DNA of 64,000 bases from Solidesulfovibrio carbinoliphilus subsp. oakridgensis (GTDB lineage: Bacteria > Desulfobacterota > Desulfovibrionia > Desulfovibrionales > Desulfovibrionaceae). Numbering within the stretch: the first letter of the stretch is position 1; each line of letters begins with the position of its first letter. The notes under the pieces are model-generated. The model was not told where the DNA came from and searched no databases. It saw only the letters and a list, made by a program, of their open reading frames with translations. Below, one piece after another: positions 8,885 through 17,273 of the stretch. Location: assembly GCF_000177215.2 (NCBI RefSeq), contig NZ_CM001368.1, positions 1,054,001-1,118,000 on the forward strand, read 5' to 3'. Made by a program: the position numbers and the translations under genes.

Positions 8885-10426
8885 ATGCCAACCGCTCCGC
8901 TTCCGGTTTTTTTCGACCCCGCCCAGGCCGTCCCCTCTTCCCTGGCCGCCTGGCGGCAGGCCTTTGCCGCCCTGCCGCCGGCCTGCTCCCGGCCTGTGGA
9001 ACTGTGGTTCGACCGGGGGGAACTGCCGCCCCTGGTCGAGGCCGTGCGCATCCCGGACCTTGCCGACGGGCGGGTGCGGCAACTGGCCGTCTTCTATCTG
9101 GCGGCGCTCATCAATAACGTCCTGTGCACCCGGGGGGCGGGACGGGTGAGCGTGGTTGCCGACACGATCGAGGCGGGGCGCGAGTTGACCTTCGCCCTCG
9201 AACGCCTGCTTTTGGGGCGTATCGACTCTTTTTCCAACATGTCCCTGGCTTTCCTCTACGGGCTCATCCGCCGGATCTTCGGCACGGACTTCGCCCTGGA
9301 CGCCGACCGGGATCGCGCCCAGGCCCTGCGGGACCGGCTGCGGTCGCAGGCATCCGAACCGCGCCTCCAGGCCGCTCCGCCGGGCCCCTGCGCCCCTGCC
9401 CGACCGGGCACAGTCCTGGCCATCAATGTCGGCCAGCACCTGACGAGCCTGGCTCTGGTCCGCTTCGACGCCGCCGGCGGCCACGAGGTCGCCGAACTCG
9501 TGCGCCGCGATACCTGGCCGGCCGGCGGCCGGCAGTGCCTGCCTGCCGCCTGGGACGGAATCTTCGCCGAGGCCCGCGCCGTTGCCGCGGCATCGGGCCG
9601 GCCCGTCGACGCCGTGGGGGTGAGCATCGCGGCCACGACCCTGGCCGGCGTCGTCCGCCCGGTGCCGGAGTTCGGGCTCTTCGCCGATTGCCCGCCCGAG
9701 GAGATCGACACCGCAAACGTCCTGCTCCGGCAGGCCTGCGGCCGGGCTTTCCCCGGCCTGCCCCTGGCCGTGGTCAACGACGGCGAGGCCCAGGCCCGTT
9801 TCGCCTTCCACCACAGCCATCCCCTGGCGACAGGAGCGGCCTTGCCCGGCGACATGCTCTCGCTTCGCCTCGGAGCCTGCCCGGCCGTCCACTGCCTGGA
9901 CGCCCGGGGGCGGCCGGTGGAGGGCCTCCACGAATACGGCTGGCTGGTCACGCGCTACGCGCCAAGCAAAGCGACCGGGAGCCTTTTTTCGACCATCCGC
10001 CTCTACCTCTCCCACTACGGCGTGGCCGCTGCGGCCCATGATCTCGGGCTCCTGGAACACTACCGGCTCCCCATCGAAGCCGCGATTCCGTTTTTCCACG
10101 ACGCCCTGGTCCGAAACGACAACCCGGCCGGGCTCGACGCGGCCCGGGTTTACGCCCTGCTCGGGGCCCACCTGGGCATGCTGGCCCATGAGCTCGACCG
10201 CAGCCGCCCCCTGGCCGCCATCCGCCTCCTCGGCTCGACGGCCAACAAGATCGACGCCGCGGCCTTTGCCGCCATGCAACGCGGCTTCTCCGGCTTCGCG
10301 GACCGGCACGGCCTGCCCCTAGGCGCCATCCGCCTGGACCTCCTGGAGGACGCCTCCTCCATCGCCGGCCTGGTCGGCGCGGCCCAGGCCGTTCTGTCCC
10401 AGGCCCCGGCCGAGGCCACGGCCTGA
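8885..10426 (+). CDS. Uncharacterised ASKHA/ROK-like protein
   Basis: The 513-residue protein has an N-terminal helical region (1-165) and a C-terminal part with the outline of the actin/hexokinase (ASKHA) fold seen in ROK kinases. The VLAINVGQHLTSLALV strand pair stands at the phosphate-1 position, VGVSIAATTLAG at the second, AVVNDGEAQARFA at the catalytic ND motif, and IRLLGSTANKI near the end. The usual D-x-G-G-T phosphate loop reads N-V-G-Q-H, so normal sugar phosphorylation is doubtful; it may bind nucleotide without turnover or act in regulation. No operon partner or substrate clue is present. Confidence 0.6.
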   Translation: MPTAPLPVFFDPAQAVPSSLAAWRQAFAALPPACSRPVELWFDRGELPPLVEAVRIPDLADGRVRQLAVFYLAALINNVLCTRGAGRVSVVADTIEAGRELTFALERLLLGRIDSFSNMSLAFLYGLIRRIFGTDFALDADRDRAQALRDRLRSQASEPRLQAAPPGPCAPARPGTVLAINVGQHLTSLALVRFDAAGGHEVAELVRRDTWPAGGRQCLPAAWDGIFAEARAVAAASGRPVDAVGVSIAATTLAGVVRPVPEFGLFADCPPEEIDTANVLLRQACGRAFPGLPLAVVNDGEAQARFAFHHSHPLATGAALPGDMLSLRLGACPAVHCLDARGRPVEGLHEYGWLVTRYAPSKATGSLFSTIRLYLSHYGVAAAAHDLGLLEHYRLPIEAAIPFFHDALVRNDNPAGLDAARVYALLGAHLGMLAHELDRSRPLAAIRLLGSTANKIDAAAFAAMQRGFSGFADRHGLPLGAIRLDLLEDASSIAGLVGAAQAVLSQAPAEATA

Positions 10427-10549
10427 CCGGGCCGGACGGGGTCTACTTGCCCCGCACCGGCCGGCCGCCCCTTTTGACACGATCCCGCCTTTGTGCTTAT
10501 CTCTACCGCTCTTTTTCGCGAAACTCGCATGCGCTTTGGAGGCGTTTTT

Positions 10550-11215
10550 ATGACTGATTTCACTTCGCCGCAGTCGGGCCGCAATTCCGCCAACGACGTC
10601 CCGACCCTGCTGCGGCTTCCGGTGCAATACTGGAAGCAGAGCCTGGCCGGGATTCTCGTGGTCCTGGCCGCGGCCGGAGGCTATGCCCTCTACGGCGTGT
10701 ACCAGAAAGGCCAGGTCGAAAAGGCCGAGAACGAGCTCGGGACCATCGTCACCACCAAGGCCGGGGCCGAGCGTCTGGCCGCCCTGGAGGGCCTGGCCAG
10801 GACCGCGCCGGCCGGCGCCAAGGACGGCATCCACCTGGAGATGGCCAAGACCGCCCAGGAGCTCGGTGATTTCGCCAAGGCGGCCGCCGCCTGGGAAGCC
10901 GTTTCCAAGAGCGCTCCGGCCGGCATGAAGACCGTGGCCGGCCTCGGGTATGCCACGGCCCTGTCCAAGTCCGGCCAGGACGCCAAGGCCGTGGAAGTGC
11001 TCGAAGGCCTGGCCGTGTCCGCGCCCAAGGCCTTCACCATGACCGTGGACCGCCAGCTCGCCACCACGGCCGAGGCCGCCGGCCAGTGGCAGAAAGCCCT
11101 GGCCGCCTACGAGCGGATGAAGACCGGCGGCAACGTGCAAAACGCCGGCTTCATCGACGCCCGGATCGCCGACATGAAAGCCAAGGCCGCGGCCGGCGCC
11201 AAGACCAACGGCTAG
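10550..11215 (+). CDS. Membrane-anchored TPR protein (YfgM-like)
   Basis: The 221-residue product has a cytoplasmic N-terminus, one transmembrane helix (about residues 29-50, SLAGILVVLAAAGGYALYGVY) and then a helical tetratricopeptide-like domain rich in alanine and lysine. This layout resembles YfgM, an envelope chaperone adaptor attached to the Sec translocon, but similar anchored TPR proteins are common. I chose the ATG at 10550 because TTTGGAGG precedes it; an earlier in-frame ATG at 10493 lacks such a site. It stands alone, with a strong hairpin following it. Confidence 0.65.
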   Translation: MTDFTSPQSGRNSANDVPTLLRLPVQYWKQSLAGILVVLAAAGGYALYGVYQKGQVEKAENELGTIVTTKAGAERLAALEGLARTAPAGAKDGIHLEMAKTAQELGDFAKAAAAWEAVSKSAPAGMKTVAGLGYATALSKSGQDAKAVEVLEGLAVSAPKAFTMTVDRQLATTAEAAGQWQKALAAYERMKTGGNVQNAGFIDARIADMKAKAAAGAKTNG

Positions 11216-11331: not shown

Positions 11332-11344
11332 AAACCCTGACGCC

Positions 11345-11360
11345 GACGCCGATCGGCGTC
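11345..11360. promoter_or_regulatory. 16-bp perfect palindrome upstream of iorA
   Basis: GACGCCGATCGGCGTC is self-complementary and ends 23 bases before the iorA start codon. It could be an operator for the regulator encoded in the same operon; this is inference from position and symmetry. Confidence 0.35.
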
Positions 11361-11383: not shown

Positions 11384-13225
11384 GTGGGCAAGGAGCTTTT
11401 GACCGCAACGGCCGGCGAGACCCTGCTCTTGCTTGGCAACGAGGCCATCGCCCGGGGGGCCCTGGAGGGCGGGGTCCGGTTCGTGACCTGCTATCCCGGC
11501 ACGCCTTCCTCCGAAGTGCCGGACACCTTTTTCCGCCTGTCCGAAGGCGCACCCTATTATTTCGAATACTCGGTCAACGAGAAGGTCGCCCTGGAAGTGG
11601 GCGGCGGCGCGGCCCTGGCCGGGCTGCCGACCCTTGTGACCATGAAGCACGTGGGCGTCAACGTCGCGGCCGATCCGCTCATGACCCTGGCCTACGTCTC
11701 GGCCCCGGGCGGCCTGGTCCTCCTTTCGGCCGACGATCCGGGCTGCCATTCCTCGCAAAACGAGCAGGACAACCGCATCTACGCCCGCCTGGGCGGGCTT
11801 CCCTGTTTCGAGCCGGCCACGGCCCAGGAGTGCAAGGACATGGCCCGGGACGCCCTGGCCCTGTCGCGGCGCCTGGAAACCCCGGTCCTTTTGCGCACCA
11901 CCACCCGGGTCAACCACGTGCGCGGCCCCGTGACCGTGGGCGCGATGCCGCAGACAATCGAGGAAAAGCCCTTCGTCAAGGACCCGGCCCGGTTCGTGCC
12001 CCTGCCGGCCTCGGCCCGGGTCATGCACCCGAGGCTGCTCAAGGTCCTTGAAGCGGCACGGGCCGAAGCCGAGGCCTCGCCCTACAACACGGAGACCGGC
12101 GCCGGAGACGTGGGCTTTATAAGCTCCGGCGTGGCCCGCAACTACCTGGCCGACGTGCTGGAGGAAGACGGCCTCACCGGCACGGTCCGGGTCCTCGAGC
12201 TCGGTCTCACCTATCCCCTGCCGGAAGGCCGCATCGCCGCCTTCCTGGCCAAGTGCCGCACGGTGGTCATTGTCGAGGAACTCGAACCCGTCCTTGAGAC
12301 CGAAATCCGGGCACTGGCCCAGAAGCGCGGCATCGCGGTCGTCATCCTCGGCAAGGGCGAGCATCTGCCCCGCAACGGCGAGTTCTCCACCGCCAACGTC
12401 CGCCTGGCCGTCCACGCGGTCCTTGGCCGGGAGACCGCCGAGGCCGACACCCTGTCCGTGCCCGCCGATCTGCCGAAGCGGCCGCCGAACCTCTGCGCCG
12501 GCTGCCCCCACCGGGCCGCCTACTACGCCGTGCGCGAGGTCTACGGCGACACGGCCGTCTATTCCTCGGACATCGGCTGCTACACCCTGGGCTTTCTGCC
12601 GCCGTTTCGGGCCGCCGACTTTCTTCTGTGCATGGGCTCGTCGATTTCGACCGGGGCCGGCTTCGCCCGGGCCTCGGGCAAGCCGGTGGTGGCCTTCATC
12701 GGCGACTCGACCTTCTTCCACTCCGGCATCACGGGCCTGGTCGACGCCGTGGCCTACAACCACGACATCCTGATCGTGATCCTGGACAACCGGACCACGG
12801 CCATGACCGGCCACCAACCCAACCCCGGCGTCGACACCACCATCTTCGGGGAAAACCCCAATCCGGTGGACCTCATGGCCCTTATCCGGGCCTGCGGCAT
12901 CGAGCCGGTCAAGGTCAATCCGCTGAACCACAAGGCCACCGTGGCGGCGCTTACGGCCTTTTCCGAACAGCATGGTCCCCGCGTGCTCGTGGCCGAATAC
13001 CCCTGCCCGATCCACGCCCGACGCATGGGCCAGGCCAAAAAGACCCTGCCCGCCCGGGTGGCCGGCGATCCCGAGGCCTGCCTGGCCGTGCGCGACAACC
13101 TGGCCTGCCCGGCCTTTGCCATGGTCGACGGCGCCTTTTCCATCAATGCCGAACAGTGCGACGGCTGCATGTACTGCGTGCAGCTCTCCGCCGACATCAA
13201 GCCCGGCAAAAAGGAGGCGAGATGA
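11384..13225 (+). CDS. iorA: Indolepyruvate:ferredoxin oxidoreductase alpha subunit
   Basis: The 613-residue subunit oxidatively decarboxylates aryl pyruvates (from aromatic amino acids) to aryl-acetyl-CoA with ferredoxin as acceptor. The N-terminal pyrimidine-binding domain (GNEAIARGALEGG, YPGTPSSE), the central part and the TPP-binding domain (IGDSTFFHSGI then LDNRTTAMTG) are all clear. The C-terminal ferredoxin domain is degenerate: CDGCMYC and the cysteine of ACPAF remain, while the first CxxCxxC and the last cysteine are gone, which leaves ligands for one [4Fe-4S] cluster. The GTG start follows a GGAGG site. Its stop overlaps the iorB start. Confidence 0.94.
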   Translation: MGKELLTATAGETLLLLGNEAIARGALEGGVRFVTCYPGTPSSEVPDTFFRLSEGAPYYFEYSVNEKVALEVGGGAALAGLPTLVTMKHVGVNVAADPLMTLAYVSAPGGLVLLSADDPGCHSSQNEQDNRIYARLGGLPCFEPATAQECKDMARDALALSRRLETPVLLRTTTRVNHVRGPVTVGAMPQTIEEKPFVKDPARFVPLPASARVMHPRLLKVLEAARAEAEASPYNTETGAGDVGFISSGVARNYLADVLEEDGLTGTVRVLELGLTYPLPEGRIAAFLAKCRTVVIVEELEPVLETEIRALAQKRGIAVVILGKGEHLPRNGEFSTANVRLAVHAVLGRETAEADTLSVPADLPKRPPNLCAGCPHRAAYYAVREVYGDTAVYSSDIGCYTLGFLPPFRAADFLLCMGSSISTGAGFARASGKPVVAFIGDSTFFHSGITGLVDAVAYNHDILIVILDNRTTAMTGHQPNPGVDTTIFGENPNPVDLMALIRACGIEPVKVNPLNHKATVAALTAFSEQHGPRVLVAEYPCPIHARRMGQAKKTLPARVAGDPEACLAVRDNLACPAFAMVDGAFSINAEQCDGCMYCVQLSADIKPGKKEAR

Positions 13226-13833
13226 ACCGCGCCCGCGTCTTTTTAACCGGCGTCGGCGGCCAGGGCACCCTGACCGCGACCACGCTCTTGGCCCGCACCG
13301 CCCTTGACGCCGGATTGCCCGTCACCTCCGGCGAGATCCACGGCATGGCCCAGCGCGGCGGCGTGGTCGAATCCACGATTCTCATCGGCGGCTACAGGAG
13401 TCCGGTCATTGCCCCCGGCGAAGCCGACGTGCTGCTCGGGTTCGAGCTGCTCGAAACCCTGCGCGCCCTGCCGATGCTCAGGCGCGGCGGCGTGGTCGTC
13501 GGCAACAGCGAACAGGTCCAGCCGGTCGGGGTGTGCCTCGGCCGGGAGTGCTATCCGCCGCTCGATCAGGTGCTGGAGACGGCCAAGGGCTTTGCCGGCC
13601 GGGTGGTCCTGGTGCCGTGCATCAGCCTGGCCGAGCGGGCCGGCACGGCCAAGGCCGCCAACACGGTGCTGATCGGCGCGGCCGCGGCAGCAGGCGCCCT
13701 GCCCTTTGACGTGGCCGCCCTGGCCCGGTCCGTGGAAAAATACCTGAAGCCCCAGCTCGTGGCCCTGAACGTCAAGGCCCTCGAACTCGGGGCCGAGGCC
13801 GCCCGGGCGGCCCAAACGGGGCAGGCGGCGTGA
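13222..13833 (+). CDS. iorB: Indolepyruvate:ferredoxin oxidoreductase beta subunit
   Basis: The 203-residue product is the gamma-domain-like partner of IorA and belongs to the pyruvate/ketoisovalerate oxidoreductase gamma family. TGVGGQGTLTAT near the N-terminus and the EIHGMAQRGG segment (about residues 38-47) are diagnostic. Together the two subunits complete the CoA-dependent oxidation of indolepyruvate and related aryl pyruvates. An ATGA overlap with iorA and a GTGA overlap with the regulator downstream show a tightly coupled three-gene operon. Confidence 0.94.
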   Translation: MNRARVFLTGVGGQGTLTATTLLARTALDAGLPVTSGEIHGMAQRGGVVESTILIGGYRSPVIAPGEADVLLGFELLETLRALPMLRRGGVVVGNSEQVQPVGVCLGRECYPPLDQVLETAKGFAGRVVLVPCISLAERAGTAKAANTVLIGAAAAAGALPFDVAALARSVEKYLKPQLVALNVKALELGAEAARAAQTGQAA

Positions 13834-15461
13834 TCGACGCCTTGACGACTTCCTTTGACAGTGCCGGCCCGGCCTTCTACGGAGCCCTCGCGCGCATCGT
13901 GGCCGCGACGGGCCCGGGCCGGGCCGTGCGGCGGGGCCTCGAGAACGCGCTGACGATCCTCGTCGACGTCCTCGGCTACCGCCGGGCCTGCCTGGAGCTC
14001 CACGACCTGCCCCAGCCGGGCGCGCGCATCATCCTGTCCCACGGCAAGGAGCGCGGCCTCGACCACCTCTTCGGCCCGGCCCCGCTCTCGACCGGCCAGG
14101 TGATCGGCTCCAGGCGGTCCATGATCCTCCAGGACGTCAAAGACCACCCGGACTTCATCGGCCGGCCTCCCCAGGAGTTGGCCACCCTGTCCTACATCTG
14201 CGTGCCCGTGACCGTGCCGGACCCGGACGGACAGGTGGAGGATTTCCAGCCCGCCTCGCCGTCCGGCGTGGTCGGAGCCCTGAGTGTGGACCTGCCCAAG
14301 GCTCCGATGGTCTTTCTGGAGGCCCACCGGGAATTTCTGGCCGTGGTCGGCGGCGTCATCGGCAACGCGGCCCTGCGCCTTCGCGACGAACTGGCCCGGT
14401 CCAGGCGTCGGCCCGTCCAGGCGGCCCAGTCGTCCCAGACGGCGCCGGCCGCCCCCGCTCCGGGCGAGGGGCAGGAGCTGCCCGCGGCCACGGCCGAGGT
14501 GGCCATGCCCGTGGCCGTGTCCAAAAGCATGCGGCTGGTCCTGCGCCAGATCGCCCAGGCCGCCGATTCCGACGCGCCGGTGCTCCTTCGGGGCGAGGAA
14601 GGCACGGGCAAGGAGGCACTGGCCCTTTTCCTCCACAGCCAAAGCGGCCGCCGGGGCCGGCCATACCTGCGCCTGGGCTGCGCCGATTTGCCCAAGGAAA
14701 CGGCACTGGAAGCCCTTTTCGGCGTGCAAAAGGGCGAGCAGTCCAAGGCCACCCGGTCCAAGCGCGGCATCTTCGAACTGGGGCAAGGCGGCGTCGTCTT
14801 TCTCGACGACATCGAGGAACTGTCCCTCGACGCCCAGGGGCAGGTGCTGCGGGTGATCCAGGAAGGGACCGTGCAGCGGATCGGCAGCGACAAGTCCGTG
14901 CCGGTCGAGGCCCGGGTGGTGGCCGCCACCACGGCTTCGCTTGAGGACGCCATGGCCCGGGGAGAATTTCTCGAAGACCTCTACTACGCCCTTGGCGTCT
15001 TTGCCCTCTTTGTGCCGCCGCTTCGCGACCGGGTGGGCGACATCCTGCCCCTGGCCGAACGGTTCCTGGAAGAGTATTCCCGGCGCACGGGCAAGAGCGT
15101 GCGCCGCATCTCCACCCCGGCCATCGATCTCTTAAACCAGTACCACTGGCCCGGAAACGTCCGGGAACTGGCCAACTGCATGGACCGGGCCGCCACCTTG
15201 TGCGACGAGGCCGTCATCCGCACCTACCACCTGCCGCCGACGCTGCAGACCGGCGAGTCCTCGGGCACGGAACCCTCCCTGTCCTTTGGCGAGGCCGTGG
15301 CCACTTTCGAGCAGGAGCTTCTGGTCGAAGCCCTCAAAAAGGCCCGGGGCAACATGTATCAGGCGGCCCGGGACCTGCGCGAGAGCTACCGGGTGGTCAA
15401 TTACAAGGTCAAGAAATACGGCATCGATCCCAAGCGCTTCACTCCCGGCCGACGCGGCTAA
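13830..15461 (+). CDS. GAF-AAA+-Fis regulator of the NtrC family lacking GAFTGA
   Basis: The 543-residue protein has a GAF-like sensor domain (about residues 15-190), a sigma54-activator-type AAA+ domain (225-450) and a Fis-type helix-turn-helix (about 495-540). Walker A (GEEGTGKE), Walker B (VVFLDDIEEL) and the WPGNVREL segment are present. The loop that contacts sigma54, normally GAFTGA, reads GEQSKA at residues 302-307, so classical sigma54 activation is not expected. Regulators without this loop, such as TyrR, act at sigma70 promoters. GTG start overlapping iorB indicates that it controls this operon, perhaps in response to aromatic compounds. Confidence 0.85.
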   Translation: MIDALTTSFDSAGPAFYGALARIVAATGPGRAVRRGLENALTILVDVLGYRRACLELHDLPQPGARIILSHGKERGLDHLFGPAPLSTGQVIGSRRSMILQDVKDHPDFIGRPPQELATLSYICVPVTVPDPDGQVEDFQPASPSGVVGALSVDLPKAPMVFLEAHREFLAVVGGVIGNAALRLRDELARSRRRPVQAAQSSQTAPAAPAPGEGQELPAATAEVAMPVAVSKSMRLVLRQIAQAADSDAPVLLRGEEGTGKEALALFLHSQSGRRGRPYLRLGCADLPKETALEALFGVQKGEQSKATRSKRGIFELGQGGVVFLDDIEELSLDAQGQVLRVIQEGTVQRIGSDKSVPVEARVVAATTASLEDAMARGEFLEDLYYALGVFALFVPPLRDRVGDILPLAERFLEEYSRRTGKSVRRISTPAIDLLNQYHWPGNVRELANCMDRAATLCDEAVIRTYHLPPTLQTGESSGTEPSLSFGEAVATFEQELLVEALKKARGNMYQAARDLRESYRVVNYKVKKYGIDPKRFTPGRRG

Positions 15462-15539: not shown

Positions 15540-17273
15540 ATGGCCAGCCTTGCCAGCCACGACTATTACCGCGACGACATGACCCAAATGCCGGCGCTCC
15601 GCTCCATCGCCCAGACCCTGTGCCTGGACAAACGCGTGCGCAAGGTGACGGCCGCCGAGGCTTACGCGCTGGCCAAAAGCCAGCACGACGTCATGGACAC
15701 GGACCTGCCGATCTATCCGCCGGCCGCCCGGCGCCTGGGGCTGCCCGAAGGCGCCACCGTGCTCAACAACTGCCACGGCCGCATCGTCGGCCGCACGGCC
15801 AAGGCCCGGCGGTTTTACACCCGCATGGAACCGACCGAGCGGCGCAAGGTGGAGGCGGACCTGCGCGAGGCGGTCTACGCCCTCCAACGCCACCCGCTGA
15901 TCAAGGCCGAAGCCATCCTCGGCCTCGACCCGGACCTCATGATCAAGGCCACCATCGTGACCACCGAGGACGACGCGGTCAACGTCTTCAACTGGCTGGC
16001 CAATTTCACGCCGTACGAGGAACTGGCCGAGGCCTACGCAAAGAGCCCGCGCCTGCCCATTCCCGACATCCTGGTGGTCGGCTTCAACCACTGGAAGACC
16101 ACCGACCCCTACTACCACAACGAAGGCGGCTCCCAACTGGCCCTGGTCGACGAGGACGCCAACGTCATCTTCAACCTCGGCATGCGCTATTTCGGGGAAC
16201 GCAAGAAAGGCACCCTGACCCTGGCCTGGACGTCCGGCATGCGTCTTGGCATGGCCGCCTGCCACGGCGGCATCAAGGAAATCGATTTTTCCGGCTGCCA
16301 GGCAAAGCGCGACCGGGACATGGGCAAACGCTCCATCGCCTTTTTCGGGCTTTCGGGCACGGGCAAGTCCTCGCACACCAATTCCCATGACAACGGCGGC
16401 ACCCTGCCCGCCGGGTTCTCCAAGGTGGTGCTCCACGACGACGCCTTCCAGATCGACTGCGCGGGCAAGGTCTGCCGGGTCTGGGAGCCGACCTTGTTCG
16501 ACAAGACCGATTCCCGGCCGCTCGGCCATCCGGACTGGCGGTACATGATTTCAACCATGAACCTGGCCTTGACCGAATCGGACGGCCAGATCCTGCCGCT
16601 CGGCCAGGACGTGCGCAATCCCAACGGCCGGGCCCTCATCGACCGGGATCTCCTCGGCACCTACGTCAACCGCTGTTCCTTCCCGGACGTCATGGTCTGG
16701 CTCATGAAGGACACCTGCCTGCCGCCGGTGGTCCGCTTCGCCGACAAGCGGCTGGCCGTGGCCATGGGGGCGTCGCTGATGACCCGGCGCAACCTGGCCG
16801 AGAACGTCAGCGAGGACGAGCTCAAAAAACTGGTGTTCGAGCCCTTTGCCAACCCCTTCCGGGTCTATGAGCTCTGGAAGGACGTGGAGGCGTTTTTGAA
16901 CGTCTTCGAGGCCGGGGCCGTGGGCTACGCCTTCAACTCCGTGGGCTTCTGGAAGACGTCGGACCGCGAAGTGCGCAAGATTCCGCTCCAGACCTCGCTC
17001 ACCCTCCAGACCGCCCTGCTCCTGGAGCAACTCGAGTGGGAGGAGTGGGACCTCCTGCCCGGGGCCCAGCTGCCGAAGCGGGAAAGCGTGGAACGCCTCC
17101 TGCCCGGCTATGCCGAAACCTACGACCCGGCCGCGGTCGAAAACCACGACCGCTACCTCGAAACCCTGCGCGACCGGTTCCACCAGCGCCGGGTGTTTCT
17201 GCAGAATTCCGACCTGCACCACCAGCCGGAACTGCTGATGGGGCTGGTCAACGCGCTTATGATCCGGGCCTAG
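15540..17273 (+). CDS. pckA: ATP-dependent phosphoenolpyruvate carboxykinase-like protein
   Basis: The 577-residue protein carries the PckA kinase loop GLSGTGKSS (about residues 277-285), an aspartate pair in LHDDAFQID for Mg-ATP, and a YFGERKKGTL segment matching the K213 region with a histidine soon after (ACHGG). ATP-type PEP carboxykinase converts oxaloacetate and ATP to PEP and CO2. Several stretches depart from well-studied enzymes, including the N-terminal substrate part and the region after the aspartate pair, so this is a divergent branch whose substrate should be confirmed. GGAGG precedes the ATG. No pathway partner is adjacent. Confidence 0.75.
   Translation: MASLASHDYYRDDMTQMPALRSIAQTLCLDKRVRKVTAAEAYALAKSQHDVMDTDLPIYPPAARRLGLPEGATVLNNCHGRIVGRTAKARRFYTRMEPTERRKVEADLREAVYALQRHPLIKAEAILGLDPDLMIKATIVTTEDDAVNVFNWLANFTPYEELAEAYAKSPRLPIPDILVVGFNHWKTTDPYYHNEGGSQLALVDEDANVIFNLGMRYFGERKKGTLTLAWTSGMRLGMAACHGGIKEIDFSGCQAKRDRDMGKRSIAFFGLSGTGKSSHTNSHDNGGTLPAGFSKVVLHDDAFQIDCAGKVCRVWEPTLFDKTDSRPLGHPDWRYMISTMNLALTESDGQILPLGQDVRNPNGRALIDRDLLGTYVNRCSFPDVMVWLMKDTCLPPVVRFADKRLAVAMGASLMTRRNLAENVSEDELKKLVFEPFANPFRVYELWKDVEAFLNVFEAGAVGYAFNSVGFWKTSDREVRKIPLQTSLTLQTALLLEQLEWEEWDLLPGAQLPKRESVERLLPGYAETYDPAAVENHDRYLETLRDRFHQRRVFLQNSDLHHQPELLMGLVNALMIRA

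Follow-up and report, generated by a model that had tools for sequence, protein, structure and literature searches.

We propose, with moderate confidence, that the regulator encoded beside iorAB in Solidesulfovibrio carbinoliphilus is an ATP-binding, probably non-hydrolysing protein that acts independently of sigma54 and is ligand-gated at sigma70 promoters, with amtB as a candidate target and repression as the likeliest mode. The analysis covered a 64-kb window, by which we mean the whole stretch of DNA, and coordinates are window positions. The operon comprises the following features.

10474..10502, + strand: operon promoter, conserved sigma70-type (TTGACA, 17-bp spacer, TTATCT), from comparison of upstream regions
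10550..11215, + strand: TPR_21-like protein in the DVU1952-type position, first gene of the operon, from profile search and synteny
11384..13225, + strand: iorA, indolepyruvate:ferredoxin oxidoreductase alpha subunit, 683 bits, above the curated cut-off
13222..13833, + strand: iorB, indolepyruvate oxidoreductase beta subunit, from profile searches and synteny
13830..15461, + strand: regulator gene, NifA-like GAF - AAA (PF00158) - lid - Fis HTH, DVU1949 orthologue, from the ORF and profile searches

Domain organization and orthology of the regulator

The regulator ORF begins with a GTG start that overlaps the iorB stop and encodes a product of 543 aa, LFGVQKGEQSKATRSKRGIFEL. Its domains and active-site positions are as follows.

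13938..14363, + strand: GAF domain, residues 37-178 (Pfam, 25.7 bits)
14592..14615, + strand: Walker A, GEEGTGKE, residues 255-262, identical in all clade members (alignment)
14676..14678, + strand: conserved switch Asn replaced by Gly283, LRLGC versus xxxNC (alignment)
14733..14750, + strand: GEQSKA in place of the GAFTGA L1 loop, residues 302-307 (alignment)
14793..14810, + strand: Walker B, VVFLDD, residues 322-327, catalytic Glu changed to Asp, FLDD versus FLDE (alignment)
14970..14990, + strand: both arginine fingers replaced, by Leu381 and Ala387, FREDLYYR to FLEDLYYA (alignment)
15297..15419, + strand: Fis-type HTH, residues 490-530 (Pfam, orthologue alignment)

The PF00158 AAA domain scored 163.8 bits in Pfam. 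The GAF match of the S. carbinoliphilus member lies under the Pfam cut-off of 28.6 bits, and GAF was detected in all 27 aligned regulator members. The domain search found no ACT or PAS match, GAF being the sole sensor domain found. NifA proteins, which share the GAF sensor, are the best whole-length relatives (TIGR01817, 302 bits; 9qq6_C in the structure library, profile positions 5-509). However, NifA is a true sigma54 activator, and the window protein, which lacks GAFTGA and falls below the NifA equivalog cut-off of 529 bits, cannot be called a NifA. In the AlphaFold model (mean pLDDT 81) the AAA fold is retained, with a TM of about 0.9 to the NtrC1 and FleQ domains.

The gene order (TPR gene - iorA - iorB - regulator), the sequence and the tree agree, which identifies the regulator as an orthologue of DVU1949 of Desulfovibrio vulgaris Hildenborough. 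The regulator fits the DVU1949 orthologue group by its monophyly, by operon synteny and by the identity of the HTH, with Nitratidesulfovibrio relatives standing in for DVU1949 itself, and the order GAF-AAA-HTH is also shared. The recognition helix is identical in the DVU1949 orthologues read here. Kazakov et al. (2015, PMC4641369) entered DVU1949 with GAFTGA, noted iorAB co-transcription in four genomes and predicted a sigma54 regulon of nine operons under the label nitrogen metabolism and transport; their analysis turned up no conserved sigma54 promoter near the gene of the regulator. Unlike DVU1949 as listed there, the window protein is without the loop and four catalytic residues. Judged from sequence, the regulator is a one-component NifA-like GAF-AAA-HTH protein, the Solidesulfovibrio orthologue of DVU1949, linked to nitrogen metabolism.

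Loss of the sigma54 machinery

Alignment placed GEQSKA exactly at the GAFTGA position, as an equal-length substitution with no deletion. The first-pass annotation had described this replacement at residues 302-307, which both the alignment and a control of 32 paralogues confirmed; its nucleotide span of 14730-14750 had the right end and a start one codon early. It had also listed Walker A, Walker B and the Fis-type HTH as remaining. Walker A and the HTH are indeed kept, but Walker B reads FLDD, not FLDE. Of the parts expected in a functional bacterial enhancer-binding protein (bEBP), the window protein has the PF00158 domain with its Walker A. It lacks the GAFTGA loop (GExSKx or similar throughout the clade) and the catalytic residues, with DD in Walker B, Gly283, Leu381 and Ala387 at the respective positions. 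What the Walker B Glu, the Asn and the finger do in the ATP cycle is summarized in PMC7175178.

The other PF00158-type matches of the same genome served as a control. GAFTGA or a mild variant was present in 31 of 32, and Walker B DE with the second Arg finger was likewise kept in 31 of 32, so the loss of the active site is not a genome-wide trait. Another degenerate PF00158 paralogue, L308 (G000:C1:2374913-2375752), is 29% identical, with GAFTGA and finger absent, Walker A reading GEPGSGRA and Walker B reading LEE. RpoN was present in 24/24 genomes tested, so sigma54 itself has not been lost.

With the loop, the catalytic Glu and both Arg fingers gone, and with an operon promoter of sigma70 type that has no -24/-12 site, the regulators of this clade should be unable to remodel sigma54 polymerase and activate sigma54 promoters, a prediction that is well supported.

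Orthologues and evolution of the loss

The degenerate active site was found in all Solidesulfovibrio orthologues examined, in Fundidesulfovibrio and in the related lineages L016, L037 and L038, and this group formed one clade in the regulator tree (support 100/100). Its 17 orthologues, 13 of them in the genus, come from independent assemblies and carry the same change, which excludes a sequencing error as the cause of GEQSKA. The possibility raised earlier, that all close orthologues carry GAFTGA, was thus not borne out (17/17 without it). The suggested search among orthologues for loss of the loop gave a divided picture: outside the 17-member clade, the other Desulfovibrionales orthologues examined and the outgroup rows keep GAFTGA (once GSFTGA), DE and the fingers, except for a second clade. 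The latter, consisting of Mailhella/Bilophila and relatives (L073-L091, L094; support 100/100), has loops of GAFLGA, GAFPGA or GAFHGA, mostly DA or similar for DE, and the first Arg finger lost in most members.

By itself, the regulator tree allows one common loss for both degenerate clades (AU p 0.29). In the tree of iorA, which is linked in the same operon, the Bilophila-type rows fall with Nitratidesulfovibrio, and a joint degenerate clade is rejected (AU p 6e-6). This test covers the Bilophila-type rows, Mailhella proper having no linked iorA, and for these rows a single loss is rejected. Because the iorA tree rejects the joint clade, the GAFTGA machinery was likely lost twice, separately, in the two clades.

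Within Solidesulfovibrio, dN/dS rose from 0.04 in the HTH to 0.11 in the lid, 0.18 in GAF and 0.28 in the AAA core; in intact orthologues the values were 0.15 for the AAA core and 0.38 for GAF, from more divergent pairs with less reliable dS. The HTH stretch, SYRVVNYKVKKYGID, is strongly conserved across intact and degenerate clades. Between clades the HTH was 74% identical versus 48% for the AAA core, and all three groups of orthologues share the recognition region SYR[VI][VI]NYKVKK. The replaced loop is basic and itself conserved, with 66% identity in distant pairs versus 58% for the AAA core.

These values bear on whether the gene is simply decaying, its AAA domain under relaxed selection and the protein on its way out. 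The higher dN/dS of the AAA core than in intact orthologues and the drift of catalytic positions inside the clade would fit, but the ORF is kept in every genome, all domains are under purifying selection, the HTH is nearly frozen and Walker A is identical throughout, and we regard decay as very improbable.

The iorAB operon and its promoter

A TTTTGAC[AC] element, followed after about 17 bp by a TTA/TAG-type -10, was found upstream of the TPR gene in nearly every genome. A sigma54 (-24/-12) site was found at the operon promoter in no clade, intact or degenerate (best score 11.2 of a possible 20.5), and a sigma54 promoter for the TPR-iorAB operon was ruled out. In most intact and Mailhella genomes the promoter spacer holds a TTGACA-N4-TGT[CA]A-type inverted repeat, and in the degenerate clade the second operator half-site is gone.

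From the genomes compared, the linkage to iorAB predates the loss of the loop. The first-pass annotation had held that the coupling to an indolepyruvate oxidoreductase, together with the missing loop, makes a TyrR-like aromatic sensor a testable idea. Such a sensor would bind an aromatic amino acid or indolepyruvate through its N-terminal domain and repress or activate iorAB at a sigma70 promoter. The shared operon, its sigma70-type promoter and the absent loop do recall E. coli TyrR, a PF00158 regulator that likewise has no GAFTGA and acts at sigma70 promoters. However, the TyrR loop was lost by small deletions (PMC3162934) and that of the window protein by substitution, and the sensor domains differ, with a NifA-type GAF here and no ACT or PAS. 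The TyrR equivalog model gave 223 bits against a cut-off of 576, less than the 302 bits of the NifA model. The TyrR box TGTAAA-N6-TTTACA had three 3-mismatch matches in the 64-kb window (chance mean 2.2) and none near the operon. Moreover, GAFTGA-bearing orthologues have the linkage as well and Mailhella keeps the TPR gene and the regulator without iorAB, so the linkage is a poor guide to the lost loop. Adding the lost operator half-site and the ties of the orthologue to nitrogen genes (PMC4641369), we consider an aromatic sensor unlikely. Of the earlier interpretation, sigma54 independence held up, by the residue losses and the sigma70-type operon promoter, and the aromatic sensor did not.

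Several features near the operon were also recorded. A hairpin, GACGCC...GGCGTC, lies at 11339-11360 just 5' of the iorA ribosome site, with a similar form in other Solidesulfovibrio loci, and is possibly an attenuator or processing site. A 513-aa ORF (8885-10426) with zero Pfam or NCBIfam matches occurs upstream in Solidesulfovibrio loci only, at 46-51% identity among Solidesulfovibrio, where its neighbours mostly show 70-93%. Directly 3' of the regulator, a PEPCK-ATP-like gene (15540-17273; weak Pfam match, 32.5 bits) is present in Solidesulfovibrio and L037 only, at 82-93% identity.

The amtB promoter and the candidate operator

A sigma54 site (score of at least 13; shuffle rate 0.5%) was found at type A amtB in 9/13 intact-clade loci versus 0/11 degenerate-clade loci (Fisher p 0.0006, the loci not being phylogenetically independent, since the degenerate clade is one evolutionary event). 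The remaining 4/13 intact-clade loci are likewise without the site, so that loss at the promoter is not strictly tied to loss of the loop. Two Mailhella amtB genes of type A keep the site.

Comparison of the amtB upstream regions of six Solidesulfovibrio species showed, as their longest conserved blocks, the candidate operator TTGCAAAAATGTCAA, with few changes, and ACAAAAACGTTA. The former is followed by TAG/TAA at fixed spacing and the latter lies beside the ribosome site near the start. The candidate operator, TTGACATTTTTGCAA, spans the -35 and spacer of a sigma70-like amtB promoter whose -10 is weak. The strict operator pattern had one match in the 4.2-Mb genome, at G000:C1:3767832-3767847 upstream of amtB (L125, L268); this match adjoins a divergent response-regulator gene. 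We infer that the regulator still reads TTGACA-N4-TGYMAA and that amtB is the best candidate target, an assignment drawn from motif similarity and gene context, such that another protein could own the putative operator.

Allowing 3 mismatches, the genome-wide operator search exceeded the reversed control in 6/6 genomes (36 versus 8 in the genome of the window, and just 23 versus 18 in G004). The matches were scattered or within genes, and so were not taken to define a regulon. One recurrent match, TTGACGATTTTGCAA, turned out to belong to the coding sequence of a HIT-family-like protein, and an operator at glnA was unconvincing in the degenerate clade.

Discussion

In the ancestor of the Solidesulfovibrio/Fundidesulfovibrio clade, replacement of the loop, the switch Asn, the catalytic Glu and both arginine fingers would have ended sigma54 activation, with Walker A and the DNA-reading helix retained. 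The kept Walker A with the residues for hydrolysis lost suggests ATP as a structural ligand, most likely bound without useful hydrolysis, the AAA fold serving assembly. DNA binding at sigma70 promoters may be gated by GAF. Because GAF is of NifA type and the context nitrogen-related, nitrogen or carbon status is favoured over aromatic amino acids as the signal, and repression of amtB, relieved by such a signal, would be the likeliest mode.

A nearly frozen HTH and an operator across the -35 leave two main possibilities, a repressor sitting on the promoter and an activator working with sigma70. The latter would follow Rhodobacter capsulatus NtrC, an ATP-bound oligomer on the -35 recruiting the housekeeping polymerase with ATP binding but no hydrolysis. 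R. capsulatus and Caulobacter NtrC, both nitrogen regulators, are precedents for the same pattern of a kept Walker A and a lost sigma54 contact (PMC10274813), and the weak amtB promoter and the basic, conserved loop also fit. The operator over the -35 and spacer, however, is in a classical repressor position. The repressor is favoured, and activation seems possible but doubtful. A point against the favoured reading is that the operator at the regulator's own operon promoter is not intact in the degenerate clade.

It is also conceivable that inactive AAA subunits mix into the ring of an intact bEBP, poisoning or tuning it. The retained AAA fold and Walker A, the lost catalytic residues and the 31 intact paralogues in the genome would allow this, but the HTH is the most constrained domain, which suggests DNA binding, and the closest paralogues are just about 35-44% identical; such an anti-activator is, if anything, a shade less likely than the aromatic sensor.

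Other bEBP relatives without GAFTGA that control sigma70 promoters are TyrR, DhaR, HupR, VpsR and the NtrC proteins of Rhodobacter and Caulobacter (PMC3162934, PMC10274813). Unlike the window protein, these NtrC proteins lost the loop by deletion and have receiver domains, and Caulobacter NtrC still requires its Walker A and B residues (PMC10274813). In the literature searched we found no prior report of GAFTGA loss in the DVU1949 orthologue group. New here are the loss by substitution with the whole catalytic set collapsed, its likely occurrence on two separate occasions beside sister lineages that stayed intact, and the matching change at the amtB promoter. A bolder version, to which we give only tentative credence, is that the sigma54 ATPase cycle was dropped twice by substitution with DNA specificity kept, that amtB passed from sigma54 to sigma70 with the same operator, and that the basic loop GE[RQ]SKATRSKRG newly came to contact DNA or the housekeeping polymerase.

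bEBPs are often called sigma54 activators from one Pfam domain alone, and the sigma54 regulon predicted in D. vulgaris should not be transferred to Solidesulfovibrio. Judging by this clade, a group of orthologues may move from sigma54 to sigma54-independent control and still keep its operon and DNA-reading helix. Separate losses beside intact sisters, with rpoN present, would offer a natural experiment for telling the parts of the AAA domain that serve sigma54 from those used in DNA binding and signalling.
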